NCBI RefSeq assembly: GCF_028550415.1
Contig: NZ_JAQQKX010000003.1
Coordinates: 1-64,000, forward strand
Direction: 5' to 3'
Length of the DNA: 64,000 bases
DNA from: Asticcacaulis aquaticus
GTDB taxonomy: Bacteria > Pseudomonadota > Alphaproteobacteria > Caulobacterales > Caulobacteraceae
Positions 6,699-23,026 of the stretch are shown here, in pieces. The notes beneath the pieces were generated by a model that did no database searches, was not told the DNA's origin, and worked only from the letters and a program-made list of their open reading frames with translations. Position 1 is the first letter of the stretch. The number at the start of each line of letters is the position of its first letter. The position numbers were made by a program, and so were the translations under genes.

Positions 6699-6852
6699 AG
6701 GAAGCTGGCCGTCAGGACACTTTCAACGCCGGAAATTCTAACATCTAACGTACAAAACTATACGACAGCCGGGTCATGTCTTTTGCATCCGGTGTGAAAA
6801 CGTTTGCGCCTAAAAATCACATGTCAAAACGATTGCCACAGGCGAAATTCAT

Positions 6853-6889
6853 TTGACGTACCGATATTCAATATATAATCATAATATAT
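6853..6889 (+). promoter_or_regulatory. Candidate promoter with a palindrome over its -10 box
   Basis: TTGACG at 6853-6858 and TATAAT at 6874-6879 are 15 bases apart (16 if the -35 is read as TTTGAC). The near-palindrome ATATATAATCATAATATAT at 6871-6889 covers the -10 box, where a repressor would block RNA polymerase. Its core recurs in opposite orientation upstream of the IclR gene (21926-21939). The -10 is excellent, but the short spacer lowers confidence. Confidence 0.5.
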
Positions 6890-7071
6890 GACACGACGCG
6901 TTGGGCTTGTATCCCTCCAGATGTGGTGAAAACCACGTCGCCTTTGAGGCCTGATATCGTCTCTGTCCCTTTGACGCATGGGCTTTGTGCATGGTCTGGT
7001 GTCGAGGGTGTACCATCCCTTCTGTGGACTACAGCTTCGCCCCTCCATCGCCTCATGGAGGGGTTTTTTTT
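6887..7071 (+). ncRNA. Candidate short leader RNA or sRNA ending at an intrinsic terminator
   Basis: If the promoter at 6853-6879 is used, transcription would begin near 6887 and stop at the terminator ending at 7071. That gives an RNA of about 185 bases with no credible reading frame. It could be a free small RNA, or an attenuated leader whose terminator must be overridden for the DUF4450 gene to be expressed. No known riboswitch or sRNA family was recognised. This is inferred from the signals only. Confidence 0.35.
7040..7071 (+). terminator. Strong rho-independent terminator upstream of the DUF4450 gene
   Basis: A perfect 9-bp stem CCCCTCCAT / ATGGAGGGG (7040-7048 with 7055-7063) with a 6-base loop is followed by eight T residues. 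It stands 97 bases before the DUF4450 start and over 340 bases after proA, so it more likely ends a short leader transcript than the proline operon. Confidence 0.85.
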
Positions 7072-7082
7072 GAACGAATACC

Positions 7083-7115
7083 AAAATATCATCTCGATAA
7101 TCAGGATGATATTTT
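7083..7115. promoter_or_regulatory. Inverted repeat, candidate operator of the DUF4450 gene
   Basis: The arms AAAATATCATC and GATGATATTTT (7083-7093 with 7105-7115) are perfect 11-base inverted repeats separated by 11 bases. The repeat lies between the terminator and the start codon, where a regulator could act. It has no T-run, so it is not a terminator. Half-sites of the type TATCA also occur in front of the PL10, TonB receptor and IclR genes. Confidence 0.45.
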
Positions 7116-7167
7116 ACAGGTTTGCGCAGGCCGGACTATAACCGGTCGCAAAACAGGGACAAAACAT

Positions 7168-10100
7168 ATGGCCAGATATCTCCGCGGAACCCTCCTGCTG
7201 GGGGCCCTCATGGCGGCGACCGCCTTGTCGCCCGTCACGGCAATTGCTCAAACGACGGCGGCCCTGTCGGCGACGCGTGGTCTGCGTCCCAATCTGGAAG
7301 GTCAGACGGCGACGCCGCTGCGGTATCGCCCGGATGGCGCCGATTTCGTCATCCGTAATGGCGCGGAATTCTTCAACCGCGCGCTATACGGCGGCAATAC
7401 CGCCTTCCGGGTCGACGGTGGTGACAAGCCGGAGTTGTCGCTGTACCTGCCGGGACGCGGTGGCAATCTGCGATTGGGAATCAAGACCGCGCAGGGCATC
7501 AAGTGGCTGAGTGACACGGCGGAGATTGTCACGCGCTACCGCCCCGGCGAGCTGCTCTACACCATCAGCGATCCGATCCTGGGTAAGGGGAAACTTGAGG
7601 TCGCCGTACTGGCCTATCATCAGACCGAAGGGGTCATCGTTCAGGCACAGGGCAAGGGCCTGCCCAAGGGCGCGGAGCTGGTCTTCGCCTATGGCGGCGG
7701 TAACGGTCAGCGCGGGGCGCGCGACGGCGATATCGGCACTGAAAAAGTGCCGATCAGCGAATATTTCCAGTTCAAGCCCGAATATGCTGCAGACGATCGT
7801 TATGTCCTGAGCACCGGCGGGTTCACCGTCTCGGGTAAGGCCGCGCAACTGAACGGCGTGACCTCGGTCCCGGCGAAAATCGTCTGGGCGGATGCGGCTA
7901 AGTGGGGTGATGCTCAGGCCCTGTTCACCTCGTCCGCCGAGGCACCGGTCAAGGTTGCGATCGGACATATTCCGCTCACGGACAATAAACCTGTTTATAT
8001 CTCGGTACAGGTCACCGGGCGGCCGGTCGCGGGCGATCTGGACACCTATCGTGCGGTCACCGCCCCCGGCGGCAATGCCGGGGCGACCGCGAAGGTCATA
8101 CCGCTCGACCCGACCTATGCGGCGGCGGAATTGCCGAAGCGCTTTGCCGCCACGCGCACCCACTTCGCCGCCTTGCGCGACCGCGTGAAGATCGAGACAC
8201 CCGACCCCTATCTCGATGCTGCCGTCGGTGCGCTGAACGTCGGGGCCGACGCCATCTGGGATGAGGCGCAGAGCGGCGTCATGCACGGCGCCATCGCCTG
8301 GCGTGTCAAGCTGCTCGGCTGGCGCGGCCACTACACGCCGGATGCACTGGGCTGGCACGATCGCGCGCGCCGGAACTTCAGCGGCTGGACCGCGCGTCAG
8401 AACACCAGCCCGATCCCGGATAAACTACCGCCCGCCGATGCTGACGCCAATCTGGCGCGCAGCGAAGCGGCGCTGCATTCCAACGGCGACATGTCGAATT
8501 CGCACTACGACATGAATGCCGTCTTTATCGATGCCCTGTTCCGCCATCTGCTGTGGACCGGCGACGTCGACTATGCCCGCGAAGTCTGGCCGGTCATCGA
8601 GCGGCATCTGGCGTGGGAGAAGCGCATGTTCCGCCGGGAGTATGGCCCGGACAAACTGCCCTTGTACGAAGCCTATGCCTCGATCTGGGCCAGCGACGAC
8701 GTGCAGTATAGCGGCGGCGGCGTGGCCTATCAGTCGGCCTACAACCTCTATCACAGCCGCATGGCGGCGCGCCTCGCCACCCTGATCGGCAAGGATCCGA
8801 CGCCCTATGCGACGGAGGCCGATCTGATCGGGAAGGGGATGCGTCAGTATCTGTGGATGGAGGATCGCGGGGCCTTCGCCGAATATCGCGATATTCTGGG
8901 CGAGAAGCTGCTGCACCCCAGCTATGGCCTGTGGAGCTTCTATCACACGATGGATTCCGAGGTGCCGAATGCGTTTGAGGCCGCGCGCATGGCCGCCGAT
9001 CTGCAAACCCACCTTAAACCCTTGCCGATAGCCGGTGAGGGTGTGCCGAAGGATCGCGACTACCACGTCCTGCCCAGCTCCGACTGGATGCCCTATAGCT
9101 GGTCGGTCAATAATGTGGTGATGGGCGAAAACCTGCACACGGCGCTGGCCTACTGGCAGGCGGGGCAGTCCGAAGAGGCCTATGACCTGACGCGCGGCTC
9201 GGTCATGGCCAGCTTCTATATGGGCATCGCGCCGGGCAATATCGGCAGCCTGAACTATCTCGACGTCTATCGCCGCGAGGCCCAGCGCGACTTCGCAGAT
9301 GGGGCCGGGGTCATGTCGCGGACCGTGGTCGAAGGCCTGTTCGGCGTGAAGCCGGATGCCTTGAGCGGTGTCCTCACCCTGACGCCGGGCCTGCCGAAGG
9401 ACTGGGATCACGCGAAGCTGACCCACCCCGATCTGGGGCTGGCCTTCAGGCGCACGGGCCTGAGCGAGCAATGGACGGTCAGCCAGACGGCGACGCGGTT
9501 TAAGCGCTTTACGCTGGAGATACCGGCGACGCATGAAACCGTGGCGGTGACCATCGATGGCAAACCGGTGAAATGGAGCGCGATCAAAAGCGTCGGCGCA
9601 CCGAAACTGCGCATCGAAGCGCCATTGACCAAGACGGCGGTCATCAAGGTCGTGTGGTCCGGGGCGGCTATCGATCCCAAACGGAACCTCATGGCCATCG
9701 CCGGACCCGAGCCGGAGTTTCGGGCGCACAAACAGGGCGCGTTCGAGTGGTTCACGCTGGTGGAACGCGCGAAGGACACGCACCCGGTCTGTACACCCGA
9801 AGCGCCGACATGGACGCAGGCGGGCGCTAAGGTCACGGCTGAGGCCGTCGATCTGACGCCGTATTTCAATGACCGCGTCACCGACATCTTCAAGCCGAAC
9901 AAATACCTGTCGCCGCGCTCGCCCTACGTGTCGCTGTCCCTGCCGTCGCAGGGCATCGGGGCCTGGGCTGGTCACGTCAAGGCCACCGCCGAGATCGACG
10001 ACAAGGCCCTGCGCGCCGGGGGCGGTAAGGTCACGCTACCGAACGGCCTGAGTTTCGCGACGCCGGCGGGCGAGGCGAAGAATATCCTGTTCACCTCGCA

Positions 10101-10545
10101 GTGGGACAATTACCCGAAAACCGCGACCGTGCTGCTGACCGGCAAGGCCCGTCACGCTTATCTGCTGATGGCCGGATCGACCAACCATATGCAAAGTCAG
10201 ATGGTCAATGGCGAGGTGGTGATCACCTATACCGACGGTACGGAGGCGAAGCTCGACCTGCGCAATCCGGAAAACTGGTGGCCGATCGAGCGCGATTACT
10301 TCATCGACGACTATCAGTTCCAGCTGTGCGGCAAGGCACCCGTGCGCCTCGATCTGAAAACCGGTGCGGTAAGCGTGCCCGGCACAGCGAGCAAGGGCCG
10401 CAAGGACCGCGAAACCATCGCGGGCGGTGCGGCCAATGTGCTGGATATCGCGCTCGATCCGACGAAGACGCTGAAGTCCCTGACGCTTACGACCCACGTC
10501 AATGAGGCGGTGATCGGCCTGATGGGCGTCAGTCTGGAGCGGTAG
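7168..10545 (+). CDS. DUF4450 domain-containing secreted glycosidase-like protein
   Basis: This 1125-residue protein has a cleavable signal peptide of about 30 residues ending in AIAQ. The open frame runs further upstream, but the ATG at 7168 has a good ribosome binding site (AGGGAC) and begins the signal peptide. The mature N-terminus (RYRPDGADFVIRNGAEFFNRALYG, then NTAFRVDGGDKPELSLYLPG) is the signature I associate with DUF4450. A long helical region of (alpha/alpha)6 glycosidase type follows (about residues 360-760, with WRGHYTPDALGWHDRAR and EAYASIWASDDVQYSGGG). A beta-sandwich tail with FTSQWDNYPKTA and NWWPIERDYFIDDYQFQLCG ends the protein. Such proteins occur in pectin or rhamnogalacturonan loci of Bacteroidetes. 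The exact substrate is unknown; periplasmic action on pectin fragments is inferred from the neighbours. Confidence 0.75.
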   Translation: MARYLRGTLLLGALMAATALSPVTAIAQTTAALSATRGLRPNLEGQTATPLRYRPDGADFVIRNGAEFFNRALYGGNTAFRVDGGDKPELSLYLPGRGGNLRLGIKTAQGIKWLSDTAEIVTRYRPGELLYTISDPILGKGKLEVAVLAYHQTEGVIVQAQGKGLPKGAELVFAYGGGNGQRGARDGDIGTEKVPISEYFQFKPEYAADDRYVLSTGGFTVSGKAAQLNGVTSVPAKIVWADAAKWGDAQALFTSSAEAPVKVAIGHIPLTDNKPVYISVQVTGRPVAGDLDTYRAVTAPGGNAGATAKVIPLDPTYAAAELPKRFAATRTHFAALRDRVKIETPDPYLDAAVGALNVGADAIWDEAQSGVMHGAIAWRVKLLGWRGHYTPDALGWHDRARRNFSGWTARQNTSPIPDKLPPADADANLARSEAALHSNGDMSNSHYDMNAVFIDALFRHLLWTGDVDYAREVWPVIERHLAWEKRMFRREYGPDKLPLYEAYASIWASDDVQYSGGGVAYQSAYNLYHSRMAARLATLIGKDPTPYATEADLIGKGMRQYLWMEDRGAFAEYRDILGEKLLHPSYGLWSFYHTMDSEVPNAFEAARMAADLQTHLKPLPIAGEGVPKDRDYHVLPSSDWMPYSWSVNNVVMGENLHTALAYWQAGQSEEAYDLTRGSVMASFYMGIAPGNIGSLNYLDVYRREAQRDFADGAGVMSRTVVEGLFGVKPDALSGVLTLTPGLPKDWDHAKLTHPDLGLAFRRTGLSEQWTVSQTATRFKRFTLEIPATHETVAVTIDGKPVKWSAIKSVGAPKLRIEAPLTKTAVIKVVWSGAAIDPKRNLMAIAGPEPEFRAHKQGAFEWFTLVERAKDTHPVCTPEAPTWTQAGAKVTAEAVDLTPYFNDRVTDIFKPNKYLSPRSPYVSLSLPSQGIGAWAGHVKATAEIDDKALRAGGGKVTLPNGLSFATPAGEAKNILFTSQWDNYPKTATVLLTGKARHAYLLMAGSTNHMQSQMVNGEVVITYTDGTEAKLDLRNPENWWPIERDYFIDDYQFQLCGKAPVRLDLKTGAVSVPGTASKGRKDRETIAGGAANVLDIALDPTKTLKSLTLTTHVNEAVIGLMGVSLER

Positions 10546-10550
10546 ACCAA

Positions 10551-10595
10551 GCGCATCCCAAAAAGTGTGCAGCGGTTTTTTGGAATCAGATGCGC
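10551..10595. repeat. Hairpin repeat, copy 1 (core AAAAAGTG ... CGGTTTTT)
   Basis: Imperfect hairpin: GCGCAT (10551-10556) pairs with ATGCGC (10590-10595), and CCAAAAA pairs with TTTTTTGG further in, around a short GC-rich centre. The core AAAAAGTG-N-CGGTTTTT is shared with the element at 36692-36736. It resembles small palindromic elements scattered through alphaproteobacterial genomes. It lies just after the DUF4450 stop codon. Confidence 0.6.
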
Positions 10596-10602
10596 GACTA
10601 AA

Positions 10603-10631
10603 AAAGGCGGGAGGATCAACCTCCCGCCTTT
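10603..10631. terminator. Bidirectional terminator between convergent genes
   Basis: A perfect 12-bp stem AAAGGCGGGAGG / CCTCCCGCCTTT with a 5-base loop. Because both ends are A/T runs it can end transcription of the DUF4450 gene (+) and of the glycosidase-like gene (-). Confidence 0.85.
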
Positions 10632-10635
10632 ATGT

Positions 10636-12909
10636 TTACAGTGACGGCGACAGCCCTTCGGCCTTGACGGTCCAGCCCTTGGGGAAGCCGGGGGCGCGGC
10701 GCGTTTCGCCGTCCCAGCCCCCGGCCATCAGGGCCACGGCCAGCAGCAGCGACCCGTTCGACGGGAAATAGGTCTCGGCGGCGCGCTGATAACCCGGACC
10801 GTCCGGTCCGGCGGCGGGTTGCGCCCCCGCGCCGGTCGCCGTCGGCACAAAGGCCGCGGCGTGGGCGTCGAGATGGACGCGCGGGGTCATGCCGCTCTTG
10901 CCATATTTATTGTTTTTGGCGTCGAAGAACAGCCAGTTGACGGCTTCGTCCGGGGCATTAAGTCGCGTGGCGGTCATGGCGATCATCGCATAGTCCCAGC
11001 CCCAGGTCTGACGCAGGTCCCAGTCGCGTTTCATCCGGTCCAGCGTCCGGCGCATGGTCGGCTTATCGACACCCTTGCCGGGCAGCCAGCCGAGCGGCAT
11101 CAGGAACGACGGGTGGTCGCGGTTCTGGCAGGTTTCCTCCAGCGCGTTCGATTTGCACGTCCCCGCCGCCTTGTCCCAGAAACCGGGCTCGGAACCGACC
11201 GGCAGGTAAAGCCCGTCCTTTTGCGGCAGGGCCGGCCATTTGGCCAGCACGGCGTCCCAGTCGGCCCGACGCTTCAGGCCGCGCCGCTCGCGCCACGTCT
11301 GCGCCGTCTCGATACCCCAGCGGAAATAGGCGACCTCGAACATCGGGTCGAAGGTGGTCAGGGGCGCGAAGTTTTCCTGCACCGGAATGATCGGCGGACC
11401 CAGACGGTAGCGGCCCGACGTGTCGTCGAAATGTACGAACGAGGCCAGCAGTTCCGCCGACTGTTCGACCAGTTCGCCGTAACGAGACAGAACTGTCTTG
11501 TCCTTCCGGGCGCGCCACAAAAGCTCGCTCATATAGATAGGATGCGGCTGTTGCCACATGATGAAGGGCGAGACCTTGCTGGGGCTGTCGGCACCGTCCG
11601 GTCCGATCATCTTGGGCCACCAGGCACCCTTGACGCCTTGCTGGGCGGCGCGGGCCTTGGCCTTGGGCAGGAAGTTCACGTACCAGCCAAGGCTGCGCTC
11701 CAGAAGCTGCGGCCGTCCCCACAGGGCGAAGTGCGCCGAATGCCACGGGTGCATCTCAAGGTGCGACTTGCCGTTCCAGCTGTTCGAAAACAGGCCCTCC
11801 TCCTGCGGCGGGAAATCGCCTGCCGCATTCACCGCCATCAGATATTGCGACAGGACGACCCGGCGTTCCAGTTCAGTCGCGCGCGGGTCGGCGCTGCCGG
11901 CGAATTCGACCATGCCGCCGTTCGTCCAGTAGTCCTTCCAGTGTCGGGCAACCTGCGAACCCGCCACCGCAACGGACGGCAAGGCGAGGTCGGGCTTTTG
12001 TGAGAATTGCGCCATGACCATCAGGGTCGTGCCGGTCGCCGAAGCCCGGTAGGCGTGCGACCCGGCGGCCTCGACGCGCCCGCCGGTTGCCTGAACGGCG
12101 GCGTGATAGATCGTCTGGTCTATGCGGCGCTCCAGCCGGACTTCGTTCGGCTTGCGCGAACGCACCGTCGTCGTGTGGCTGTCGGTATTCGTCCAGTCCG
12201 CCGGATCGGGATTGAGCGTCTTCGACACGCCCGGATATTTGACGATCACCGCCAGCCGCCCGTCGGCGATCAGCTTCGAGGCGATATCGACAAAGACCGT
12301 ATCCTGATCTGGCAGGACACGGGTCACCACCGTGACGGCCTCGCCATCATAGGTAAAACGGCTGGTCAGGGCGCCGGTCCACATATCGAGCGTTTGCTGC
12401 GTATCGCGGATATCCTCGAAGCGCGCGGGTTTGCCGGTGCGGTCCTTCAGGTCGAACGATACCCGCCCCAGCGAGAAACGGTGCGGATTTTCACGAATCC
12501 ACGCGATAGCCGGGCGGGTATTGGCCTCGGCCCAGTCCTTGATATAGCCATAGCGGCGCTTATGCCCATGCACATCGATCTCGACCTGCGTATCGGCGAC
12601 CGTATAGCCGTTCGGATTGGGGAAGCTGTGCCACGCCCACTGGGCCTCGGTGAGCAGCGGCGCGATCTTGCTGTAGGGCTCGGTGAAGGTCTGAAGGCCG
12701 GTAATGTCGGCGGTAAAGCCCATACTGCCGTTGCCCAGCATCAGCGGTGCCGAGGGATCGACCGCGGTGAGCGTGGGGTTATGCCGCGTCACCAGCGCCT
12801 TGCGGTCGATGGGCGTCTGAGCTTGCGCCTGACCGGCGATGGCTATCGAACCGGCGATGGCCGCGGCAGACCCCAGAAGATGGCGGCGAGACACAGTAAG
12901 GTGGGACAT
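10636..12909 (-). CDS. Tat-exported six-hairpin glycosidase-like protein
   Basis: This 757-residue protein starts at the ATG at 12909, supported by AGGAGG 7 bases upstream. The N-terminus VSRRHLLGSAAAIAGSIAIAG is a twin-arginine signal, so it should be folded before export to the periplasm. The mature start RHNPTLTAVDPSAPLMLGNG and GFTADITGLQTF is followed by a beta-sandwich region and then a helical barrel with WNGKSHLEMHPWHSAHFALWG, FIMWQQPHPIYMSELLWRA and GPPIIPVQENF (Glu about residue 512, a possible catalytic acid by analogy with GH65/GH95-like enzymes). The tail is AETYFPSNGSLLLAVALMAGGWDG. I cannot name its family. It lies inside the pectin locus on the opposite strand and converges on the DUF4450 gene. 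Confidence 0.65.
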   Translation of the reverse strand: MSHLTVSRRHLLGSAAAIAGSIAIAGQAQAQTPIDRKALVTRHNPTLTAVDPSAPLMLGNGSMGFTADITGLQTFTEPYSKIAPLLTEAQWAWHSFPNPNGYTVADTQVEIDVHGHKRRYGYIKDWAEANTRPAIAWIRENPHRFSLGRVSFDLKDRTGKPARFEDIRDTQQTLDMWTGALTSRFTYDGEAVTVVTRVLPDQDTVFVDIASKLIADGRLAVIVKYPGVSKTLNPDPADWTNTDSHTTTVRSRKPNEVRLERRIDQTIYHAAVQATGGRVEAAGSHAYRASATGTTLMVMAQFSQKPDLALPSVAVAGSQVARHWKDYWTNGGMVEFAGSADPRATELERRVVLSQYLMAVNAAGDFPPQEEGLFSNSWNGKSHLEMHPWHSAHFALWGRPQLLERSLGWYVNFLPKAKARAAQQGVKGAWWPKMIGPDGADSPSKVSPFIMWQQPHPIYMSELLWRARKDKTVLSRYGELVEQSAELLASFVHFDDTSGRYRLGPPIIPVQENFAPLTTFDPMFEVAYFRWGIETAQTWRERRGLKRRADWDAVLAKWPALPQKDGLYLPVGSEPGFWDKAAGTCKSNALEETCQNRDHPSFLMPLGWLPGKGVDKPTMRRTLDRMKRDWDLRQTWGWDYAMIAMTATRLNAPDEAVNWLFFDAKNNKYGKSGMTPRVHLDAHAAAFVPTATGAGAQPAAGPDGPGYQRAAETYFPSNGSLLLAVALMAGGWDGETRRAPGFPKGWTVKAEGLSPSL

Positions 12910-13388
12910 TTTCAGCCTCCTGAACAAGAGCGGGTCCGTTCAGTGCGGCCCGTACGTTTCCTGAGCATCGATTGACAGCGATGTCGTAATTGTAAAGTCG
13001 TATCTATATTCGAGACGACGGGCGTCAGCCCTGTGTGTCGCCACTGAAAAACAGAACCGTGCAGCGGTAGCGGTCCCACAATCTGAGACGCCGACGCCGC
13101 TTGAGCGGTTGACCCGGAGCGACTGACGGTATCCTTCCTGCGGAATTCAGCACGGACAAACCCGTTGGTTTGCCTATATTGGCAAGGCTAAAGCCGAAAG
13201 TCGATGCGCAAAACTGAGAGATTGTGAGACATTTACAACAAAATTTTGCCTTACCAAAATTGACGCAATGCACATTTTCACAAATGAAAACTTTTTTAAA
13301 AAATGCGTCAAAAGCGAGCATTTCTGTTTACAAGAGCGAAATGGAGCAATATCATTTTTGAAATAACGATATAAAAAATAGGGACGAT
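12910..13388. other. Divergent intergenic region between the glycosidase-like and PL10 genes
   Basis: This 479-bp gap is GC-rich on the left and strongly AT-rich from about 13190 to 13388. It must hold both promoters. Visible structures are TATATTCGAG at 13005-13014 (also at 21935-21944 before the IclR gene), the palindrome TTGCC-N6-GGCAA at 13170-13185, and the pair ATATCAT / ACGATAT at 13349-13355 and 13366-13372, close upstream of the PL10 start. A 98-codon open frame on the minus strand here is not credible. Confidence 0.5.
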
Positions 13389-14693
13389 ATGAAACGGCAT
13401 CCCCTGGGAGTAGCGGCTATTCTCGTGACGCTGGGCCTGCCTGTGGCAGGTCTGGCCGCCGTCATTGGCACAAACGAACCGGCGCCTTCCGTGACGCCGG
13501 AGCGCCTGTCGATTCTGCCGGTCAAGGATCGCGCGGTGTGGGCGGACTATATCAAGCGTTCCGACGCACAGATGAAGCTGGATCGCGAGACTCTGGCCGG
13601 TGAGCTTCAGCCGGGCGAAACCCCGCCGCCGCCGCCCGTCGCCGGCAGCGGCAAGATGCCGCTGAACAAGGACGCGGCGTGGTACGGCTCTGCCGAGGCG
13701 CGCGCCATCGCCGACACCATCGTCAGCTTCCAGACCCCGGCGGGTGGCTGGGCCAAGAACCAGGACCGCACCAAGCCGCCGCGTCTGCGCGGACAACGCT
13801 ACGCCAATAATGCCGAGACCATGGAATTGGGGACGGGCAGCTTCGATGCGCCGCACGACCGTTTCTGGACCTTTGTCGGCACGCTGGACAATGGCGCGAC
13901 GACGACCGAGATGCGCTTTCTCGCCCGTGTCCAGCAGCAGCTGCCGGGCAAGGACGGCGACGCCTATCGCGCCAGCATCCTCAAGGGGGTCAATTATCTG
14001 CTGACGGCGCAGTATCCGAACGGCGGCTGGCCGCAGGTCTATCCGATCGAGGGCGGTTTCCACGACGGCATCACCTTCAACGACAACGCCGTGGCCGAGG
14101 CGGCGATGCTGCTGGAAGACGTCGCCGAAGGTAAGGTCGAATACGCCTTCGTGCCGAAGGACCTGCGTCAGAAGGCCGGTGCCGCCAGCGCACGCGCCAT
14201 TCGCCCGATCCTCGATGCCCAGATCGTAGTCGACGGCGTCAAAACCGTCTGGCCGCAGCAGGTCGATGCCCTGACGCTCGCCCCTATTTCGGCGCGAAAT
14301 TACGAGATGCGCTCTCTGGCCAGTGCCGAAAGCACCGATATTCTGCTGTTCCTGATGCGCCAGCCGAACCCGACGCCGGAAATGAAGGCCTCGGTCCATG
14401 CCGGTGTCGCCTGGCTCAAGGCCCACGCCATCCGCGACAAGGCCTTTACCGAGGTCAGCAAGGACGAGGGGCGCAAGCTGATCGACAAGCCCGGCGCCGG
14501 GCCGATCTGGTCGCGCAACTACGACATCAGGACGGGCAAACCGATCTTCGGCGATTGGGACAAGTCGATTCAGGACGACGTCAACAATATCTCGAAAGGC
14601 CGCCGCAACGGCTATTCCTGGTACGGCAGCGGGCCGCAAAAGGCGCTCGATGCCTATGAGAAATGGGCGGTAGCCAACCCGGTCAAGAACTAA
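13389..14693 (+). CDS. Pectate lyase, polysaccharide lyase family 10
   Basis: This 434-residue exported protein has a signal peptide MKRHPLGVAAILVTLGLPVAGLAA. It cleaves polygalacturonate by beta-elimination, yielding unsaturated oligogalacturonides; PL10 enzymes are (alpha/alpha)3 toroids that need Ca2+. Seen: SFQTPAGGWAKNQD (about residue 115), DNGATTTEMRFLARV (about 167), YLLTAQYPNGGWPQVYP (about 205), HDGITFNDNAVAEAAMLLEDV (about 230), YEMRSLASAESTDILLFLM (about 310) and NGYSWYGSGPQKAL at the end. These fit PL10 pectate lyases and the length is normal for a single catalytic domain. A ribosome binding site AGGGAC precedes the ATG. It is the initiating depolymerase of the locus. Confidence 0.9.
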   Translation: MKRHPLGVAAILVTLGLPVAGLAAVIGTNEPAPSVTPERLSILPVKDRAVWADYIKRSDAQMKLDRETLAGELQPGETPPPPPVAGSGKMPLNKDAAWYGSAEARAIADTIVSFQTPAGGWAKNQDRTKPPRLRGQRYANNAETMELGTGSFDAPHDRFWTFVGTLDNGATTTEMRFLARVQQQLPGKDGDAYRASILKGVNYLLTAQYPNGGWPQVYPIEGGFHDGITFNDNAVAEAAMLLEDVAEGKVEYAFVPKDLRQKAGAASARAIRPILDAQIVVDGVKTVWPQQVDALTLAPISARNYEMRSLASAESTDILLFLMRQPNPTPEMKASVHAGVAWLKAHAIRDKAFTEVSKDEGRKLIDKPGAGPIWSRNYDIRTGKPIFGDWDKSIQDDVNNISKGRRNGYSWYGSGPQKALDAYEKWAVANPVKN

Positions 14694-14821
14694 ATCGGAT
14701 GACGGGGGGCATCATGGCGGGCGGGCGCAAAGCCTTGCCGGGCAATGATACCGATATCACCCGATCTGTACGCATAACACGACATAAGCCGCTCAAGCGG
14801 TTATCAAAGGGGTAAGGACTC
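14694..14821 (+). promoter_or_regulatory. Upstream region of the TonB-dependent receptor, with a TGATA-N4-TATCA palindrome
   Basis: This short gap holds TGATACCGATATCA at 14746-14759, a palindrome with 5-base arms like the half-sites seen elsewhere in the locus, and CCGCT-CA-AGCGG at about 14790-14801. The ribosome binding site of the receptor is AAGG about 6 bases before the ATG. A promoter here is inferred, not seen clearly. Confidence 0.35.
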
Positions 14822-17800
14822 ATGATTAGCAAACACGGATTGAAATATCTGGCCGGGGCGTCGCTTCTGGCCATTTCGGTCGCCACGGCGGCCCAGGCTC
14901 AGACGCCGGCACCGGTTGCGGCCAAGGGTGATGAAGTCACCGACGTCGTCGTCGTCGGCGCCCGCCGCGCCGAACAGTCGGCCATCAACCGCAAGAAAAA
15001 GGCGGCAACCGCGCAGGATTCGATCGTCGCCGACGATGTCGGTAACTTCCCGGACAAAAACGTCGGCGAAGCCATTTCGCGTATTGCGGGGGTAGCGCTC
15101 GACGTCAGCGATGCCGGTGACCAAGGTGGCTTCACCATTCGTGGTCAGGGCGCGGATCTGATTCGCGTCGAAGTCGACGGCATGTCCATGCTGCCGACCG
15201 ACAGTCAGAATGGTCGTTCAGTGACGGCATTGGGTGACATGTCGTCCGATCTGATCAAGAGTGTGGACGTCGTGAAAGGTCAGACCGCCGATATGCGTCC
15301 CGGTGGTGTTGGCGGCACGGTGCGCATCGAACAGCGCAATGGTCTTGATTTCGCCAAGCCTCTCTACAAGTTCAATCTTCAATATCAGAAGAACACGCTT
15401 GACCAAAACTGGTCGCCGCGCGCCAACCTGATCCTGACGCGTAAATTCCTCGACGGCCGTCTCGGCATCCTGTTCAACTTCACCTACGATGACCAGCGCA
15501 CGTCGACTGATTTCAACAGCGTATCTGACAAGCAGGTCGGTTATCAGCCAATGGGCGATCATGATAACTCGCCGGAAAAAAGCTTCGTACAGGCTTATGA
15601 TCCTGTAGCGGCAGCCGTCACCACCAAGGCAGGGTGTGCGGCTTTGTCGACTACCGGTATCAACAGCCGTCTAAATTGTTATGCCCAATGGGAAGATTTT
15701 GCGCCGTCTCTGCCCCGTATGCGCCGCGAAAACCGTCGCGACGTGCGTACGTCCTTCCAATTGCGCGCTGATTATCGCGTCAATGACCATCTAACCGTCT
15801 TCGCTTCGTATAATCCCAATCTGCGTGAGCAGGATTTCCAAGCCTACAACCTGCAAATCATTGCTCCTACCGGGACGACGAACACGAGCGGCGTTCTGTC
15901 AACCAATATGCGTAATGTCACCGTTAACGCCAATCATTACATAACGTCCTACGACCTTATCCGTGGCAACGGTGTGACGACGCTCAACTACGATAGCCAG
16001 GTTCGCGACATCCAGCGCACCAACGAACAACACTACACCCAGTTGGGTGCCGATTTCAAATCCGGACAGTGGCTGGCCAAGGCGCGCATTCAATACGGTT
16101 CTGCGAAAGGGGAACGGGCCGACGACGCCTTCAAGATCATTGCCTCCATTCCGTCGGCCCACTTTTATATGATTCCGGAAAACGGTCTGTGGACCTTCGA
16201 CGTGCCAAGCTTTGATCTGAACAACCCGGCATCTTACTATCCGACCTCGCCGGATAACGCGTCCGCAACGCCGCGTCCGGGCGTTTTCCAAAATCCGACT
16301 ACTACCGCGCGCCTTGAATACACGCCACAGGCTGACAAGAACAACGAGTGGAATTATCAACTCGATGTCACGCGGACCTTTGAGAGCTTCGGGCCTCTGA
16401 AAACCATCAAGTTCGGTGGATCGTACACGACGCGTGAAAACCAAACCTGGCGGGAAGGCGGCTTCACCATTGCCCCGGGCGTAACTCTTTCTCGTGCACG
16501 AAGCCTCGACTATATCCGCATGTGCGATCCGACGGTGACCGGTTCCAATTGTAAGTACGGCTCGACGGTGATCAATACCATCTCGACCAGTGCGGATAGG
16601 CTGGAAAAAGAGCATATGCTCACACCGGCACAATATCGTGAGTTGATCGACAGCAGCCTGATCACGCTGCCTGGTGCAAACTATTTCAACGGCATGCCGG
16701 ATCGGGGTAACCTTATCAATTCGTGGAAAGCGTTTGATTTCGACAGCTTCTTTGGGGTTCTGGGCAAGTATGCCGATTTGAGCTCCCACAATCTCGACTG
16801 TCTATACGAATGTGTCGCTTCCGACGGCAAGACTTACACGCGCCCCAGCTATTCGACCGAAGAATCCACGGCTTCGGCCTATTTCATGGGTGATTTTGAA
16901 ACCAAGTTGCTGGGTATGGAGGTGTTTGGCAACCTCGGCTTCCGTTATCAGAAGATCGAGGTGCATGCCGCACCGTCGATCAACTTCTATGACCGTAAAC
17001 TGGATACGACCAAGGTTTCGGCCAGCAATCCGGCACCGTATACGGATGTCTTCGTTTCCCGCCGTGTAGGACAGGTGGATCGGTCTTCAGAAGACTTCCT
17101 GCCGAGCTTCAACCTCGCCGTTTGGCCGATTGAAGATCAGGTCGTTGTTCGTTACTCGATCGCCAAACAACGCGCGCGTCCGAGCATGACAAACCTGACT
17201 GGTACCAGCGCGGCTAACTGTTACAAACTTGATCAGGCACTTATTGATTTTTACGCCAATAATCCGGCCTATTTCGATGACGGTGATCCGGACACCGAAA
17301 ACCCTTCGGCGTCAACGGCCACGCGTTGCTCGGGGCGTATTGGAAATCCGGAACTCAAAGGCTACGAGGCCAACACCCAGAACGTATCGCTGGAATGGTA
17401 TCCTAATAAGGATACTCAACTCAGCTTGGCTACTTACTCTATCGACGTAAAGACTCAGCGGCCGGAGGAGATTTCGCTGCCGGAGTATGAACTGGAAGGC
17501 ACTAAGTATATTGCAGACAGCTATGTGGACGGTCCTGGCGGCTTGAAGCAAACGGGTCTCGAAGTTGCGGGACGTACCGCCTTCACCTTCCTCCCCAGCG
17601 TCCTGCGTTATACCGGTGCGGGCTTCAACTACTCGACGACCGAATCCAACGAAGCTAATACGGCCAAGGACCCGCTGACCGGAAAAGCCCTGCCGCCGGT
17701 GAAGCAGTCTGGTTATTACTACAACATCAACTTCTGGTATGACGACGGTAAGCTCAACGCCCGCGTCGCTTATCAGGAACGTGATTTCTACTATGACCGG

Positions 17801-18130
17801 ATCGACGCGTCTGAAAGTGCCAACCGCGTGCCGAATGCTGCTACAGCGGCGATTATCGGTATCCCGGTTGTTCCTACGGGTAGCGCGACCAGCTACTTTA
17901 AGACGGTTACGCCCGTCTTCAAGAACGGCTCCAAATCTCTTGATGCGCGAGCCTCCTATAAGCTGAACCGCAACGTTCAGTTCTTCGTCGAAGGCAAGAA
18001 CCTGCTTGACGATACGATCACGCGATACGCGCCGGATGATTATCGTAACGTTGGTGGAGGCACCCCGTACGTCTTCGATACCCTGTACTATGGTCGCCGT
18101 TATTACTTCGGCATCATCACGACCTTCTGA
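14822..18130 (+). CDS. TonB-dependent outer membrane receptor of the pectin locus
   Basis: This is a 1102-residue outer membrane receptor. It has a signal peptide (about 25 residues, ending AAQAQ), a probable TonB box DEVTDVVVVGARR, and a plug domain with DSIVADDVGNFPDKNVGEAI, GGFTIRGQGADLIRVEVDGM and DVVKGQTADMRPGGVGGTVR. A long beta-barrel follows, ending RRYYFGIITTF with the C-terminal Phe typical of outer membrane proteins. It belongs to the large Caulobacterales/Xanthomonas group that imports plant oligosaccharides using energy from TonB-ExbBD, which lie elsewhere. Its neighbours imply oligogalacturonides as substrate. Codon use looks less GC-rich than in neighbouring genes, as is common for loop-rich receptors. 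Confidence 0.92.
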   Translation: MISKHGLKYLAGASLLAISVATAAQAQTPAPVAAKGDEVTDVVVVGARRAEQSAINRKKKAATAQDSIVADDVGNFPDKNVGEAISRIAGVALDVSDAGDQGGFTIRGQGADLIRVEVDGMSMLPTDSQNGRSVTALGDMSSDLIKSVDVVKGQTADMRPGGVGGTVRIEQRNGLDFAKPLYKFNLQYQKNTLDQNWSPRANLILTRKFLDGRLGILFNFTYDDQRTSTDFNSVSDKQVGYQPMGDHDNSPEKSFVQAYDPVAAAVTTKAGCAALSTTGINSRLNCYAQWEDFAPSLPRMRRENRRDVRTSFQLRADYRVNDHLTVFASYNPNLREQDFQAYNLQIIAPTGTTNTSGVLSTNMRNVTVNANHYITSYDLIRGNGVTTLNYDSQVRDIQRTNEQHYTQLGADFKSGQWLAKARIQYGSAKGERADDAFKIIASIPSAHFYMIPENGLWTFDVPSFDLNNPASYYPTSPDNASATPRPGVFQNPTTTARLEYTPQADKNNEWNYQLDVTRTFESFGPLKTIKFGGSYTTRENQTWREGGFTIAPGVTLSRARSLDYIRMCDPTVTGSNCKYGSTVINTISTSADRLEKEHMLTPAQYRELIDSSLITLPGANYFNGMPDRGNLINSWKAFDFDSFFGVLGKYADLSSHNLDCLYECVASDGKTYTRPSYSTEESTASAYFMGDFETKLLGMEVFGNLGFRYQKIEVHAAPSINFYDRKLDTTKVSASNPAPYTDVFVSRRVGQVDRSSEDFLPSFNLAVWPIEDQVVVRYSIAKQRARPSMTNLTGTSAANCYKLDQALIDFYANNPAYFDDGDPDTENPSASTATRCSGRIGNPELKGYEANTQNVSLEWYPNKDTQLSLATYSIDVKTQRPEEISLPEYELEGTKYIADSYVDGPGGLKQTGLEVAGRTAFTFLPSVLRYTGAGFNYSTTESNEANTAKDPLTGKALPPVKQSGYYYNINFWYDDGKLNARVAYQERDFYYDRIDASESANRVPNAATAAIIGIPVVPTGSATSYFKTVTPVFKNGSKSLDARASYKLNRNVQFFVEGKNLLDDTITRYAPDDYRNVGGGTPYVFDTLYYGRRYYFGIITTF

Positions 18131-18161
18131 TTTGTAAAGCGTACCCTTGTTGGAAACTCAT

Positions 18162-18192
18162 CCGGTCCTGCGCCTCTCAGGACCGGACTTTT
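18162..18192 (+). terminator. Terminator after the TonB-dependent receptor
   Basis: A perfect 9-bp stem CCGGTCCTG / CAGGACCGG (18162-18170 with 18178-18186) is followed by ACTTTT. It suggests that the receptor is partly insulated from the GH105 gene. Confidence 0.7.
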
Positions 18193-18209
18193 CCGACCCT
18201 CTACTTTTT

Positions 18210-18250
18210 GCCGTCCGGAGCGACATCCCCTCGCGACGGACGGCGCTTTT
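18210..18250 (+). terminator. Second hairpin just before the GH105 start
   Basis: The stem GCCGTCCG / CGGACGGC (18210-18217 with 18237-18244) is followed by GCTTTT. It lies just before the ribosome binding site of the GH105-DUF4861 gene. It may be a second terminator, or a structure that tunes read-through or translation. Confidence 0.5.
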
Positions 18251-18267
18251 ATCAGGGACATCGATTC

Positions 18268-20538
18268 ATGACGTCTAAGCGCGCCGCCTTGTTGACGACC
18301 ATCAGCCGCAACGCCATTCTTTCTCTGGCCCTGATCAGTACACTGACGATGCCCTTGCCAGCCTATGCGCAAACGGCAGCCGCACCCAAGGTCGCCGGTA
18401 TAGAGACCGTCTGGCAGACGGCTCTGCCGCGTCCGAAACTCGATTTCAATCCGAATACCCTGCCGTCGCGTGAGGCCGTGATGGCTGCCGTCGAATACGT
18501 CAATTCGGCTCAGATTGCCGACATGACCAACCGTCCGCTTCAGATGGCGACCGGCAGCAACGTTACCGAAGCGTCTTCGAACTGGGTTGCCGCGACCTAC
18601 TATGTCGGCGCGGCGCGTCTGGCCCGCGTGTCGGAAAATCGCAATACCCTGCGCTTCCTGACCGCGGTGGCCGAGCACTATAACTATTCCCTGCGCGGGG
18701 CGCGCTCCGACCGGACCATGCTCAATGCCGACGACGTGGCGATCGGCGATCTCTATCAGGAACTGTACAGCCGCCGCGGTCAGCAGGGCACCTTGATGCC
18801 GTTGCAGCAGCGCCTCGACTTCATGGTACCGCATCTCAATCGTCCGCAGGAAACCGAGACCCTCGTCTGGTGGTGGTGCGATGCGCTGTACATGGCGCCG
18901 CCGATTCTGGCGCGCATGTCGGCCATCACCGGCGACCCGAAATATATCAAGGCTATGGACAAGGAGTGGCGCCGCACGGCGGGCCGCCTGTGGGTCGAAA
19001 GCGACCGCCTGTTCCTGCGCGACGAACGCTTCAAGACCCGCATGGGCGATAGCGGCAAGCCGATCTACTGGGCGCGCGGCAATGGCTGGGTGATCGGCGG
19101 TCTGGCGCGGACGCTGGAATATATGCCCGCCGATTTCGAGGGCCGTGACTTCTACACCGATATCTTCCGCAAGATGTCGAGCCGCATCATCGAGCTTCAG
19201 CAGCCCGACGGCCTGTGGCGCGCCGATCTCAACGACCCGAAAGCCTTCCCCGAAGCCGAAACCTCCGGCTCGGCCTTTTTCGTCTATGGGCTGGCCTGGG
19301 GCATCAATCATGGCCTGCTCGACCGCAAGACCTACCTGCCCTATGTGACGCGCGGTTGGGCGGCGCTTAACAAGCAGGTGCTGCCGAACGGGATGCTGGG
19401 CGCGGCGCAGAAAACCGGTGACCGTCCGGTGCCGACCAGGGCTGAGGAAACCGGTCCCTACGCCACCGGTGCCTATGTGCTGGCCGGGCTTGAGGTCGCC
19501 GATCTCAATGACGCGGTGCAGTCCCTGCCCGAAGCGCTGCAGGGCCGCGACCACCCGGATACGGTCATGGCGACCACCCCGACCCCGCCGCCACCGGTGA
19601 CCGTGGTCGGCGAAGAGGAAAAGGCGCGCCGTGAGGACGAGATGCGCTCGACGCGGGCTCTGGCTTACGATCCGGCGACGCTGAAACGCCCCGCCGCCAT
19701 CGAAAAGCTGACCCCGCCGACGGAAGCCGAGCAAACACCGCGCGCCGTCGCTCGCTTCGCGCCGGATCGTCTTGACGACCTGCTGTGGGAAAACGACAAG
19801 GTCGCTCACCGCATCTACGGTCCGGCGCTGGAAGCGCGCGAGTCGCCGTCGGGCTCCGGCATCGATGTCTGGGCCAAGCGCGTCCGCTACCCGTTCATGG
19901 ATCGTCAGCTGAAATTCCCGAACTACCACACCGACCGCGGCGAAGGCCTCGACTATTACGATGTCGGTCGCGGTCGCGGCGCGGGTGGTCTGGGCATCTG
20001 GTTCGATAACAAGCTGTGGACCTCGCGCAACTTCTCGACCTACAAGATTCTGAAAACCGGCGACGAAGCTCTGTTCACGGTCGATTATCGTCCGTGGCCG
20101 GTCGATGTCGCGCGCAAGGTGTGGGAGACGCGGACCTTCTCTCTGCCGCTCGGCTCAAACTTCACGCGCATGACCTCGACGATCCAGTCCGATACGAAGG
20201 AGCCGTTGATTGTCGCTGTCGGCATTTCCAAGCGCAAGACCGATGCCGGTAGCGGCGTGCTGCTGAAAGACGCCAAAACGGGCCGTCTGTCGTTCTGGGA
20301 GCCGTCCAACCCCGAACACGGCAGCCTGGGGATCAGCATTCTCGCCGATCCGGCCATGGTCGAGGGCTTTGCCGAAGACGCCGACAACTATCTGATCCTG
20401 CTGCGCGTCACGCCCGGTAAGCCCTTCGTCTACTATATGGGGTCGGCCTGGGACGGCGGGCTCGACTTCAAGTCGCGCACCGACTGGGACGCCTTTGTCG
20501 CCAAGCAAAAGCCCGACTTCAATCCGGCGAAAAAGTAG
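18268..20538 (+). CDS. GH105 unsaturated uronyl hydrolase fused to a DUF4861 domain
   Basis: This is a 756-residue exported protein with a signal peptide of about 35 residues ending AYAQ. The N-terminal GH105 (alpha/alpha)6 domain (about residues 60-440) has NRPLQMATGSNVTEASSNWV, LVWWWCDALYMAPPIL with a likely catalytic Asp at about residue 205, and YWARGNGWVIGGLARTLEYM. GH105 enzymes remove the unsaturated uronic acid left by pectin lyases. A Pro-rich linker of about 60 residues leads to a DUF4861 domain (about 500-750) with FAPDRLDDLLWENDKVAHRI, GLDYYDVGRGRGAGGLGIW and YYMGSAWDGGLDFKSRTDW. DUF4861 is usually a separate gene in pectin loci. Residue numbers are estimates. The next gene starts 10 bases downstream. 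Confidence 0.85.
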   Translation: MTSKRAALLTTISRNAILSLALISTLTMPLPAYAQTAAAPKVAGIETVWQTALPRPKLDFNPNTLPSREAVMAAVEYVNSAQIADMTNRPLQMATGSNVTEASSNWVAATYYVGAARLARVSENRNTLRFLTAVAEHYNYSLRGARSDRTMLNADDVAIGDLYQELYSRRGQQGTLMPLQQRLDFMVPHLNRPQETETLVWWWCDALYMAPPILARMSAITGDPKYIKAMDKEWRRTAGRLWVESDRLFLRDERFKTRMGDSGKPIYWARGNGWVIGGLARTLEYMPADFEGRDFYTDIFRKMSSRIIELQQPDGLWRADLNDPKAFPEAETSGSAFFVYGLAWGINHGLLDRKTYLPYVTRGWAALNKQVLPNGMLGAAQKTGDRPVPTRAEETGPYATGAYVLAGLEVADLNDAVQSLPEALQGRDHPDTVMATTPTPPPPVTVVGEEEKARREDEMRSTRALAYDPATLKRPAAIEKLTPPTEAEQTPRAVARFAPDRLDDLLWENDKVAHRIYGPALEARESPSGSGIDVWAKRVRYPFMDRQLKFPNYHTDRGEGLDYYDVGRGRGAGGLGIWFDNKLWTSRNFSTYKILKTGDEALFTVDYRPWPVDVARKVWETRTFSLPLGSNFTRMTSTIQSDTKEPLIVAVGISKRKTDAGSGVLLKDAKTGRLSFWEPSNPEHGSLGISILADPAMVEGFAEDADNYLILLRVTPGKPFVYYMGSAWDGGLDFKSRTDWDAFVAKQKPDFNPAKK

Positions 20539-20548
20539 GAGTTCCCCG

Positions 20549-21910
20549 ATGACCACTCGTCGCACCGCGCTGAAAAGTCTGATCGGGGCCTCGTCGCTGT
20601 TGCCCCTGCTGATGCAGAGCGAAGCCAGCGCGCAACCCGCCCCGCAACCCGCGGCTAAACCCGCCGGTCCCGCGCCAAAAGAATGGATCGATCCCAAGAC
20701 CGGCCATCGCGTCATCCGCGTTTCGACCGAAGACGGGTCAGGCGTGCTTTACTTCTACCGTCAGGCCTATACGCCCGAAGGCGATATCATGGTCATCAAG
20801 GCCCCGTCGGGCATGCAGGCCGTGCGGCTCAAAGACTGGAGCGTGTCGACCCTGCTCAAGGGCAAGGAAAACGACCTTCTGTTCATGATGCGCACCACGC
20901 GCGAAGCCGTCTATGCGGTCACCGATGCCGGCGAAGGCGAGGCCGAGGACCGGCCCAAGACCATATATGCCATCCATGTCGATACGAAGAAAATCCGCAA
21001 GCTGGGTCGCATCAACGGCGGGCGCATAACCTCGTCAAATGCTGACGATACCCTGTTGCTGGGGCAGGTCGCCGATGGTGCCAAACCGCTCCAGCCCAAG
21101 GACGCCGCCAGCGTCGAGAAGTTCGGTCAGGCTGAATATGCGGCGCTGGGGCCGGACGGCAAACCGCTGAACTTCGCCAAGGCCAAGGGTGTGCGCATGT
21201 GGGAGCGCTGGTCGCAGCGCGTCCCGGCGGAGATTTTCACGCTCGATATAAAGAGTGGCGATCGCAAGGTCATTTACAAGACAGAGGACTGGATCGGCCA
21301 TACCCAGTTTTCGCCGACCGACCCGACCCTGATTCGCTTCTGCATGGAAGGACCATGGCACCGTGTCGATCGCATCAAGCTGATCCGCGCCGACGGCACG
21401 GGCCTGACCAGCGTCCATACGCGCACCCAGAACATGGAGATTTTCGGCCACGAATTCTTCAGCCAGGACGGCAAGTGGATCTGGTACGACCTGCAAACGC
21501 CGCGCGGTCAGGTCTTCTGGGTCGCGGGCCTCGAACTGGCCACGGGCAAGCGCGTGTGGAAACGTATGGAGCAGAACGACTGGGGCGTCCATTTCAACAT
21601 CGCTGCGGATGGCGTGACCTTCGCCAGCGACGGCGGCGACGCCGACATGGTGGCCCACGCGCCGGACGGCAAATGGATATCGCTGTTGCAGGGTGAAACC
21701 ATCGTCGATGCCGATATGTCGGGCTATGATGACGGCCTGATCACCATTGAAAAATTCAAGGCGACGCGTCTGGCGGACATGTCGGGCCACGACTACCGGC
21801 TGGAGCCCAATCTGCGCTTTACGCCGGACGGCAAGTGGCTCGTTTACGTCTCTAACCTGCATGGTGCCAACCACGTCTATGCGGTCGAGGTTGCGCCCGT
21901 GAAAGGCTAA
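20549..21910 (+). CDS. Oligogalacturonate lyase, polysaccharide lyase family 22
   Basis: This 453-residue protein would cleave short oligogalacturonides to 5-keto-4-deoxyuronate. It is a seven-bladed beta-propeller with repeated strands such as YTPEGDIMVIK, LRFTPDGKWLVYVSN and FSQDGKWIWYDLQTPRG; the GHEFFSQDG motif contains a metal-binding His of the family. Unlike the cytosolic enterobacterial Ogl, it carries an N-terminal export signal (MTTRRTALKSLIGASSLLPL) with paired arginines, suggesting Tat export to the periplasm. The ATG has AGGAG 8 bases upstream and follows the GH105 stop by 10 bases, so the two form an operon. Confidence 0.88.
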   Translation: MTTRRTALKSLIGASSLLPLLMQSEASAQPAPQPAAKPAGPAPKEWIDPKTGHRVIRVSTEDGSGVLYFYRQAYTPEGDIMVIKAPSGMQAVRLKDWSVSTLLKGKENDLLFMMRTTREAVYAVTDAGEGEAEDRPKTIYAIHVDTKKIRKLGRINGGRITSSNADDTLLLGQVADGAKPLQPKDAASVEKFGQAEYAALGPDGKPLNFAKAKGVRMWERWSQRVPAEIFTLDIKSGDRKVIYKTEDWIGHTQFSPTDPTLIRFCMEGPWHRVDRIKLIRADGTGLTSVHTRTQNMEIFGHEFFSQDGKWIWYDLQTPRGQVFWVAGLELATGKRVWKRMEQNDWGVHFNIAADGVTFASDGGDADMVAHAPDGKWISLLQGETIVDADMSGYDDGLITIEKFKATRLADMSGHDYRLEPNLRFTPDGKWLVYVSNLHGANHVYAVEVAPVKG

Positions 21911-22026
21911 TTTTGCTTTTTAGCGTATTATCATTATATTCGAGTCGAGCACGATAAAACGAATGATTTTGACATCCGGATAAAATCGGTATGTCCTGAA
22001 ATATACCCTGGTTGGAGCCGCGTACC
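21911..22026 (+). promoter_or_regulatory. Upstream region of the IclR gene with an AT-rich shared motif
   Basis: TATTATCATTATAT at 21926-21939 matches 13 of 14 bases with the reverse strand of 6873-6886 before the DUF4450 gene. The overlapping TATATTCGAG at 21935-21944 also occurs at 13005-13014 before the glycosidase-like gene. If the IclR protein autoregulates, this is a likely binding site. Confidence 0.4.
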
Positions 22027-22845
22027 TTGCCTAAGCTGAAACTTGCTGAACCGAAAGACATGGACGCGGAGGTCGAGGACTTTGGCGAAAAGGAAAAGGG
22101 CGTCACCGGCGCCCTGACCCTGATGCGTGGTCTCGACGTTCTGAAATCGGTTTCAGGCGGCAACAATACCCTGCCCAAGATTTCCAAGGACTTGACGCTG
22201 AACAAGTCGACGGTCCATCGTCTGGCGACGACTCTGGTCGATTACGGCTACCTGTCCTTCTCGCAAAAGGAAGGCTACGCGCTGGGGACCATGCTGCTGG
22301 AGCTGGGGCACGCCGCGTCCCAGCAGATCACCCTGACCCGCGTGTCGCACGACTATCTGGTGCGTCTGGCCGCCGATACGGGCGATACGGTCAATCTGGG
22401 CGTTCTCGACGGCCATCAGGTTCATTATATCGACAAGATTCCCGGCACCCGTCGCATCGAGGTCCGTTGCGTCATCGGTGAGCGTCAGGCCATCCGTCCC
22501 ACCGGTCTCGGCAAGGCCTTGCTGATCGATGCCGAGGAAGACAAGCTGCGCGAAGTCTATAATCGCGAAACCCGCGACTATCCCAACTATCGCTACGATA
22601 TGAAGACATGGCTTGAGGTCATGAAGCACTATGCTCAGGAAGGCTATGCGCTGGACCTCGACGAGAACGAGGACCGCATCCGCTGCGTTGCCGCACCTAT
22701 CCGCGACATATCGGGCCGTATCGTAGCTGCCGTATCGATCTCCAGCGCCGCCCAATATATGGATGACGGCCGGATCGAAACGCTCAAGGGATACGTAAAA
22801 GACGTTACGCTCCAGATCAGTCGCGAACTGGGGTACAAGGACTGA
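22027..22845 (+). CDS. IclR-family transcriptional regulator (KdgR-like)
   Basis: This is a 272-residue regulator in the given model. An N-terminal winged helix-turn-helix (about residues 20-85, with ALTLMRGLDVLKSVSG, NKSTVHRLATTLVDYGYL and GYALGTMLLELG) is followed by the IclR effector domain (about 95-265), with VNLGVLDGHQVHYIDKIPG, RPTGLGKALL and EGYALDLDENEDRIRCVAAP. The start is uncertain: TTG at 22027 has GGAG 9 bases upstream, an earlier TTG is at 22012, and an ATG at 22060 lacks a ribosome binding site. IclR proteins such as KdgR repress pectin genes and are released by 2-keto-3-deoxygluconate. Its place at the end of the pectin locus suggests the same role here. Confidence 0.85.
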   Translation: MPKLKLAEPKDMDAEVEDFGEKEKGVTGALTLMRGLDVLKSVSGGNNTLPKISKDLTLNKSTVHRLATTLVDYGYLSFSQKEGYALGTMLLELGHAASQQITLTRVSHDYLVRLAADTGDTVNLGVLDGHQVHYIDKIPGTRRIEVRCVIGERQAIRPTGLGKALLIDAEEDKLREVYNRETRDYPNYRYDMKTWLEVMKHYAQEGYALDLDENEDRIRCVAAPIRDISGRIVAAVSISSAAQYMDDGRIETLKGYVKDVTLQISRELGYKD

Positions 22846-22892
22846 CACAAGTCTGAAACAGACCGGTCTGTCCACATATGTTTCTTATCGAT

Positions 22893-22910: not shown

Positions 22911-23026
22911 GAAATCTGCGTAGGCCTCTGTATTAAAAATACAGGGTGCCCTTGCGTATGGATAACAGGATATTAACGCACGCCAGCGTTCTATGGTTGC
23001 CTCACTCAGACTATATCGAAGCAGGC

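Follow-up and report, generated by a model that had tools for sequence, protein, structure and literature searches.

The window analysed here is a stretch of 64,000 nucleotides of Asticcacaulis aquaticus, in which a 16-kb pectin locus (window 6700-22900) is flanked by proA and by a histidine kinase gene, which we take to be PhoR-like. The locus contains a gene for a DUF4450 protein, a GH-like gene with no Pfam match, and genes for a pectate lyase, a TonB receptor, a GH88/DUF4861 protein, an oligogalacturonate lyase and an IclR regulator, the last of these at 22012-22845. The 763-aa protein encoded at 10636-12927 is conserved beside DUF4450 in several Asticcacaulis and has no Pfam match at 0.01, and in the nearest relative, Asticcacaulis sp. 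YBE204 (G012; locus L110), a BrkB-like gene (PF03631, L110 9446-10462) stands between DUF4450 and the next pectin gene. In 22 of 23 other Asticcacaulis examined, the kinase gene is met within the 1.5 kb read downstream of proA, so the pectin locus and the RNA described below were probably inserted or moved there in the common ancestor of YBE204 and the window's genome (G000). The features in front of the DUF4450 gene are collected in Table 1.

Table 1. Features read or predicted between proA and the first pectin gene, in window coordinates.
Feature	Position	Strand	Basis or remark
Candidate operator GTGAAAACGTTTGCG	6794..6808	+	upstream of RNA promoter; identical in YBE204
Second similar box GTCAAAACGATTGCC	6823..6837	+	3 mismatches to GTGAAAACGTTTGCG; identical in YBE204
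RNA promoter, TTGACG / 15-nt spacer / TATAAT	6853..6879	+	read directly; 6853-6886 34/34 identical in YBE204
AT-rich promoter/operator motif, site 1	6859..6881	+	at RNA promoter; matrix scan
Structured small RNA, ~185 nt (candidate)	6887..7071	+	fold z -3.5; 172/185 identical in YBE204, substitutions keep pairing
5' hairpin, long type only, inner hairpin 6920-6939	6890..6967	+	8 pairs touched, all kept, one changed on both sides
Candidate pairing segment GUCCCUUUGAC	6965..6975	+	complements the SD regions of four genes of the pectin locus; in a stem of the predicted fold
Second hairpin	6968..7008	+	predicted fold; weakly aligned by model R2 with hairpin I of compact RNAs
Weak hairpin, UCCCUU in loop	7009..7032	+	same position as CACUCCCUGA-loop hairpin of compact RNAs
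Intrinsic terminator, GC-rich stem of 9-10 bp + T8	7039..7071	+	-17.6 kcal/mol; such a terminator ends 9/9 RNAs
Inverted repeat AAAATATCATC / GATGATATTTT	7083..7115	+	one arm base differs in YBE204, pair broken
AT-rich promoter/operator motif, site 2	7092..7114	+	before DUF4450; matrix scan
Candidate second promoter for DUF4450, TTTACA / 18 nt / TATAAC	7113..7142	+	read from sequence; same letters in YBE204
DUF4450 protein gene (PF14614), first gene after RNA	7168..10545	+	frame list, Pfam

A preliminary description of this DNA had placed a promoter, a leader and a strong terminator before the pectin genes, and these elements are where it put them, all of them 5' of the DUF4450 gene (ATG 7168). 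The promoter pair (TTGACG at 6853-6858 and TATAAT at 6874-6879) was given exactly to the base, as was the terminator, whose 9-bp stem (7040-7063, with arms CCCCTCCAT at 7040-7048 and ATGGAGGGG at 7055-7063 and a 6-nt loop) is followed by eight T residues (7064-7071). The palindrome that had been noticed at the -10 box is also present, as an inverted repeat (ATATAT-AATCATA-ATATAT, 6871-6889) that spans and follows TATAAT, and ATATTCAATAT is found in addition at 6864-6874. In consensus scans of 4 kb on both strands, there were three promoter-like sites against a shuffle mean of 1.2, and two terminator-like sites against a mean of 3.2. As neither scan gave a clear excess over the shuffles, the layout alone proves nothing, and the case for an RNA gene is built on conservation, since the bare promoter and terminator pattern matches no more often than chance.

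Such conservation is evident from the comparison with YBE204. The predicted fold of 6887-7072 has an energy of -71.1 kcal/mol, compared with -56.8 +/- 4.1 for 200 dinucleotide shuffles, all of which it beats, and the fold of the YBE204 RNA is more stable (-81.5). A blastn search of 390 Caulobacteraceae genomes matched the RNA in the window's genome and YBE204 only, besides three short matches in other Caulobacteraceae (L059-L061), which lie inside longer open frames and were taken as chance. Between the window and YBE204, the RNA is 93.0% identical, the stretch 5' of it (6793-6886) 96.8% and the spacer to DUF4450 95.8% (92/96), so that all three are better conserved than the flanking coding DNA (proA 90.2%, DUF4450 88.7%, the next gene 86.3%). 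Of the 13 substitutions in the RNA, 11 fall at predicted paired bases, where they touch 10 pairs and break none (P=0.0024 for random placement); only one is a double compensatory change, which on its own is not significant (P 0.11).

DUF4450 orthologs were found in 15 of the 25 Asticcacaulis genomes searched and in 17 of 199 genomes of the family, and a terminated RNA lies directly 5' of the gene in nine of the 25, the window's own included. Two of these nine were identified by DNA match, and seven were read from the DUF4450 upstream regions and then scored by a model, R1. The comparison of relatives for conservation and compensatory change that the preliminary description had called for thus found the promoter, the structure and the terminator kept, though in these nine of the 25 genomes only. 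In the seven further genomes, at loci that include those of A. currens, A. tiandongensis, A. machinosus and a pond MAG, the RNA directly before the orthologous DUF4450 gene is compact (131-134 nt) and of like layout, with a start region, hairpin I, a loop hairpin and a strong terminator, followed by ~99-130 nt to DUF4450. The start region reads TATGAGAG in five of the seven, and the same five carry the CACUCCCUGA-loop hairpin, which is varied in G005 and G009; promoter spacing also differs in these two genomes.

Reading of the upstream regions and model R1 showed no such RNA in six of the 15 DUF4450-bearing Asticcacaulis genomes, and in four genomes without it (G002, G004, G013 and G014), one copy of DUF4450 comes immediately after the end of an upstream coding sequence. 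In the intergenic stretches 5' of a GH-DUF4450 operon at L112 and L122, no such RNA was seen by eye. A terminator scan of 29 DUF4450 upstream regions proved too strict, missing known terminators at L113, L114 and L117, and is not counted as evidence. Model R1, built from five sequences, scores all seven compact RNAs at their loci, five of them being members of the model. Its scan of the 390 genomes at E<=0.005 returned six of the seven compact-RNA genomes, with G009 below threshold, and three further matches (E 0.003-0.004), which is about the chance rate, as ~2 are expected at this threshold. Of the weak R1 matches in relatives, 17 loci were inspected, and by eye most looked like ordinary gene-end terminators. 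Among the genomes searched here, the RNA family was found only in Asticcacaulis.

The seven compact RNAs also speak for a maintained structure. In their alignment, 90.8% of cells are paired, and 18 of 30 pairs are changed on both sides, compared with 7.9 +/- 2.0 in shuffles (none of 500 reaches 18) and with at most 7 when the structure is slid along the alignment. Because the sequences were aligned by fit to the model and the structure stems from one member (the fold of G023), the pair counts lean towards structure; the slid control and the two-sided changes are still strong evidence.

The question then arises whether the long RNA of the window and YBE204 and the compact RNAs belong to one family. 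R1 did not recover the window RNA in the window at E<=10. With model R2, its score is 13.1 bits (E 0.87 for 79 kb searched; the same score corresponds to E 0.0044 when 401 bases are searched alone without filters) and that of the YBE204 RNA 16.3 bits, and an ordinary gene-end terminator at 49200-49285 scores higher (21.0 bits). Thus, as neither model recovers the window RNA convincingly, the likeness between the long and compact types may be one of analogy and not of homology. Homology, if it holds, would rest on position, flanks, terminator and, in part, the AT-rich motif, and not on a covariance-model match. The terminator at 49200-49285, which follows a gene at 48261-49229 that is malate dehydrogenase-like by eye, is a weak false match of both R1 and R2.

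The AT-rich motif has one site at the promoter of the RNA and another in the spacer that separates the terminator from DUF4450. In a leave-one-out analysis of six genomes, the RNA promoter came second among 796 places in every one, behind only the DUF4450-proximal site. Built from the DUF4450-proximal motif of six other genomes, a matrix places 6859 second and 7092 third in the 64-kb window, while with both motif sites combined in one matrix they come seventh and fifth; with a matrix of the promoter side only, 6859 was found only on the minus strand and 7092 was not listed. The ranking therefore depends on the matrix chosen, and the scores as such do not exceed chance, as 17.0 was reached in one of five shuffled windows against 13.3 here. 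The window's top match to the DUF4450-proximal matrix is a palindrome, CCTCTGTATTAAAAATACAGGGT, at 22925-22947, between the IclR and kinase genes.

The similarity of the motifs at these two places suggests that DUF4450 probably has its own promoter, for which a candidate is listed in Table 1. The box GTGAAAACGTTTGCG upstream of the RNA promoter is presumably LacI-like; allowing up to 3 mismatches, it has two matches in the window against 1.98 expected, and is thus not significant alone. The inverted repeat that follows the terminator looks closer to a DNA operator than to an RNA hairpin, since the change in YBE204 breaks a pair.

Considering these observations, we propose, with a probability of about 0.72, that 6887-7071 is an independent, terminated, noncoding sRNA gene linked to the pectin locus and not an attenuator or riboswitch. 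The preliminary description had allowed for an sRNA gene or a terminated leader, and it is the former that is favoured by the conserved promoter block, the covarying structure, the strong terminator and the separate downstream motif, while the latter is not. What one expects of an independent bacterial sRNA gene, namely a conserved promoter of its own, an intrinsic terminator and a structure kept by covariation, is present here at the sequence level, and the order of elements, a terminated RNA and behind it another conserved promoter-like block, is that of two transcription units. The promoter at 6853-6879 would drive an RNA of ~185 nt, which an unconditional intrinsic terminator at 7039-7071 would end, and DUF4450 would be read from its own probable promoter, in a stretch with a motif resembling that of the RNA promoter. 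Given the like motifs at both promoters, the RNA and the pectin gene are probably switched on together.

The alternative that survives best is a cis-acting attenuator or riboswitch, in which the transcript from 6887 would be the leader of DUF4450 and a pectin-derived signal or protein would let the polymerase pass the terminator. In each of the nine genomes in which it was detected, the RNA is immediately 5' of DUF4450, and it stays with this gene as the neighbourhood changes, being beside proA only in YBE204 and the window's genome, and the distance from terminator to gene (~96-130 nt in all nine) fits a leader. However, the terminator has a mean pair probability of 0.949-0.997 in the nine RNAs, and when an antiterminator was sought by forbidding it, the best alternative gained 0 to -2.9 kcal/mol, so none was competitive. 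A fold-switch attenuator is disfavoured because the terminator is near-certain and no alternative of more than 2.9 kcal/mol sequesters its 5' arm. Moreover, the spacer from the terminator to DUF4450 holds a conserved promoter-like block, no conserved leader peptide was found, and no Rfam switch was matched in the window or in permissive scans of the loci of eight relatives, in agreement with the earlier remark that no known riboswitch consensus could be recognised. The suggestion of a new RNA switch is thus not borne out, and the tempting riboswitch reading is corrected. Although we consider a cis-acting leader unlikely overall, a protein-mediated antiterminator might still act here.

Still less probable is that the promoter and the terminator arose by chance in AT-rich intergenic DNA and enclose no functional RNA. 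The consensus scans, with no clear excess of either element, would allow this reading, but substitutions that preserve structure and a conservation above that of coding DNA make it hard to maintain.

We also considered a small protein gene. The preliminary description saw no reading frame in this stretch, which is not strictly so, as there is a 13-codon frame from ATG 6888, the expected transcript start, and, in the phase of DUF4450, an open frame runs from TTG 6985 across the terminator; neither looks translated. The DUF4450 frame from ATG 7168 starts like a signal peptide, and the upstream frames appear untranslated. A leaderless 13-codon gene (MTRRVGLVSLQMW) could explain why seven of the nine RNAs (those of the window, YBE204 and five compact ones) have an ATG at RNA nt 2, each exactly 35 nt past a TTG, but G005 and G009 lack this arrangement, the peptides range from 7 to 44 residues with differing sequences and that of the window is not kept in relatives, and 3 of 13 residues differ between the window and YBE204 while RNA pairing is kept, all of which leaves this explanation with hardly any credibility.

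If 6887-7071 is indeed an sRNA gene, its C-rich segments suggest pairing with Shine-Dalgarno (SD) sequences. When all 11-nt segments 5' of the terminator were scanned, GUCCCUUUGAC was the best, with 6-mer complements in the start regions of four of the seven pectin genes (permutation P 0.013), and none of 344 runs of seven neighbouring genes equals the score of the pectin locus. Against free pairing, this segment lies in stems of the predicted fold, and its duplex energies are in the background range for six of the seven genes, the TonB receptor being at the 4.6% tail. Between the RNA and the DUF4450 start region, no excess pairing was found in the nine species (z -1.9 to +0.9, with 200 mononucleotide shuffles each). 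The complementarity of GUCCCUUUGAC thus hints only weakly at targets in the pectin locus.

Among k-mers chosen after inspection, AGGGAC occurs in 3 of 7 pectin-locus start regions against 5 of 351 others, and AGGGACA in 2 of 7 against none of 351. This rare SD context is found at 7142-7167, 13370-13388 and 18240-18267, before three genes of the locus. The most likely way for the RNA to act, though a tentative one, is that the C-rich segments (UGUCCCUUUGA and AUCCCUU, and CACUCCCUGA in relatives) pair with ribosome-binding sites and so tune the translation of pectin-locus or other envelope genes. A more doubtful extension would make the RNA an sRNA dedicated to the pectin locus that shares its regulator with the pectin genes. 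Its anti-SD segment would recognise an SD variant (AGGGAC/AGGGACA, or UCAAAGGG in front of the TonB receptor) that is frequent in this locus but rare outside it, and the resulting feed-forward or feedback loop would put a ceiling on translation of the locus with which the RNA travels.

If transcribed, this RNA would stand for an sRNA family that Rfam 15 does not contain and that is associated with a plant-polysaccharide locus, and it would be a tractable case of the wiring of sRNAs into carbohydrate-use loci outside Bacteroides. It also puts the evolution of a structured RNA at a moving locus on display. Our literature search found no title on Asticcacaulis sRNAs, nothing on DUF4450, and nothing joining small RNA, polysaccharide utilization, pectin and terminator.

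As to known RNA families, an Rfam scan of the window at gathering thresholds gave no match, and permissive scans of the stretch and of the eight relatives' loci gave only sub-threshold ones. The nearest candidate by type is the alpha-r8 family of anti-SD sRNAs (RF00519, suhB/mmgR, Caulobacter SisA-D), the available part of one report of which describes a weak hairpin, a C-rich anti-Shine-Dalgarno sequence with a 10-nt single-stranded core, UUUCCUCCCU, and a Rho-independent terminator (PMC12559287). The window RNA is likewise alphaproteobacterial, with C-rich segments and a weak hairpin before an intrinsic terminator, but its local score of 16.9 bits (7009-7078) is far under the 41-bit gathering cut-off, the UUUCCUCCCU core is absent from all nine RNAs, and it is longer and linked to a pectin gene. 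At least four members, with scores of 61.7-65.2 bits, are located elsewhere in this genome, where a whole-genome search with RF00519 (150 of 318 candidates scored) did not place the window RNA among the four above the cut-off; membership is therefore extremely unlikely. These four genes (L190-L193, at C7:53829-53904, C1:569712-569789, C7:13429-13505 and C2:315696-315772) equal Caulobacter SisA-D in number, and three more candidates score 30-33 bits.

In Caulobacter crescentus, the sRNAs ChvR and RusT lower the expression of TonB-dependent receptors by base-pairing, according to the accessible portions of the respective reports, and RusT has a Rho-independent terminator (PMC6237742, PMC11005374). 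The context of the window RNA, which is known from its sequence alone, is different, and it is likened to these two by kind and not by sequence. There are, finally, sub-threshold matches to anti-hemB (RF02837) and to the Betaproteobacteria toxic sRNA (RF02278) over the C-rich loop and the terminator, both in the window and in some relatives. They score 13.6-24.3 bits against cut-offs of 49.5 and 50, with an E of 0.007 for anti-hemB in a 491-base scan of the window stretch, and the simpler reading of this likeness is that an anti-SD loop followed by a terminator has arisen by convergence.
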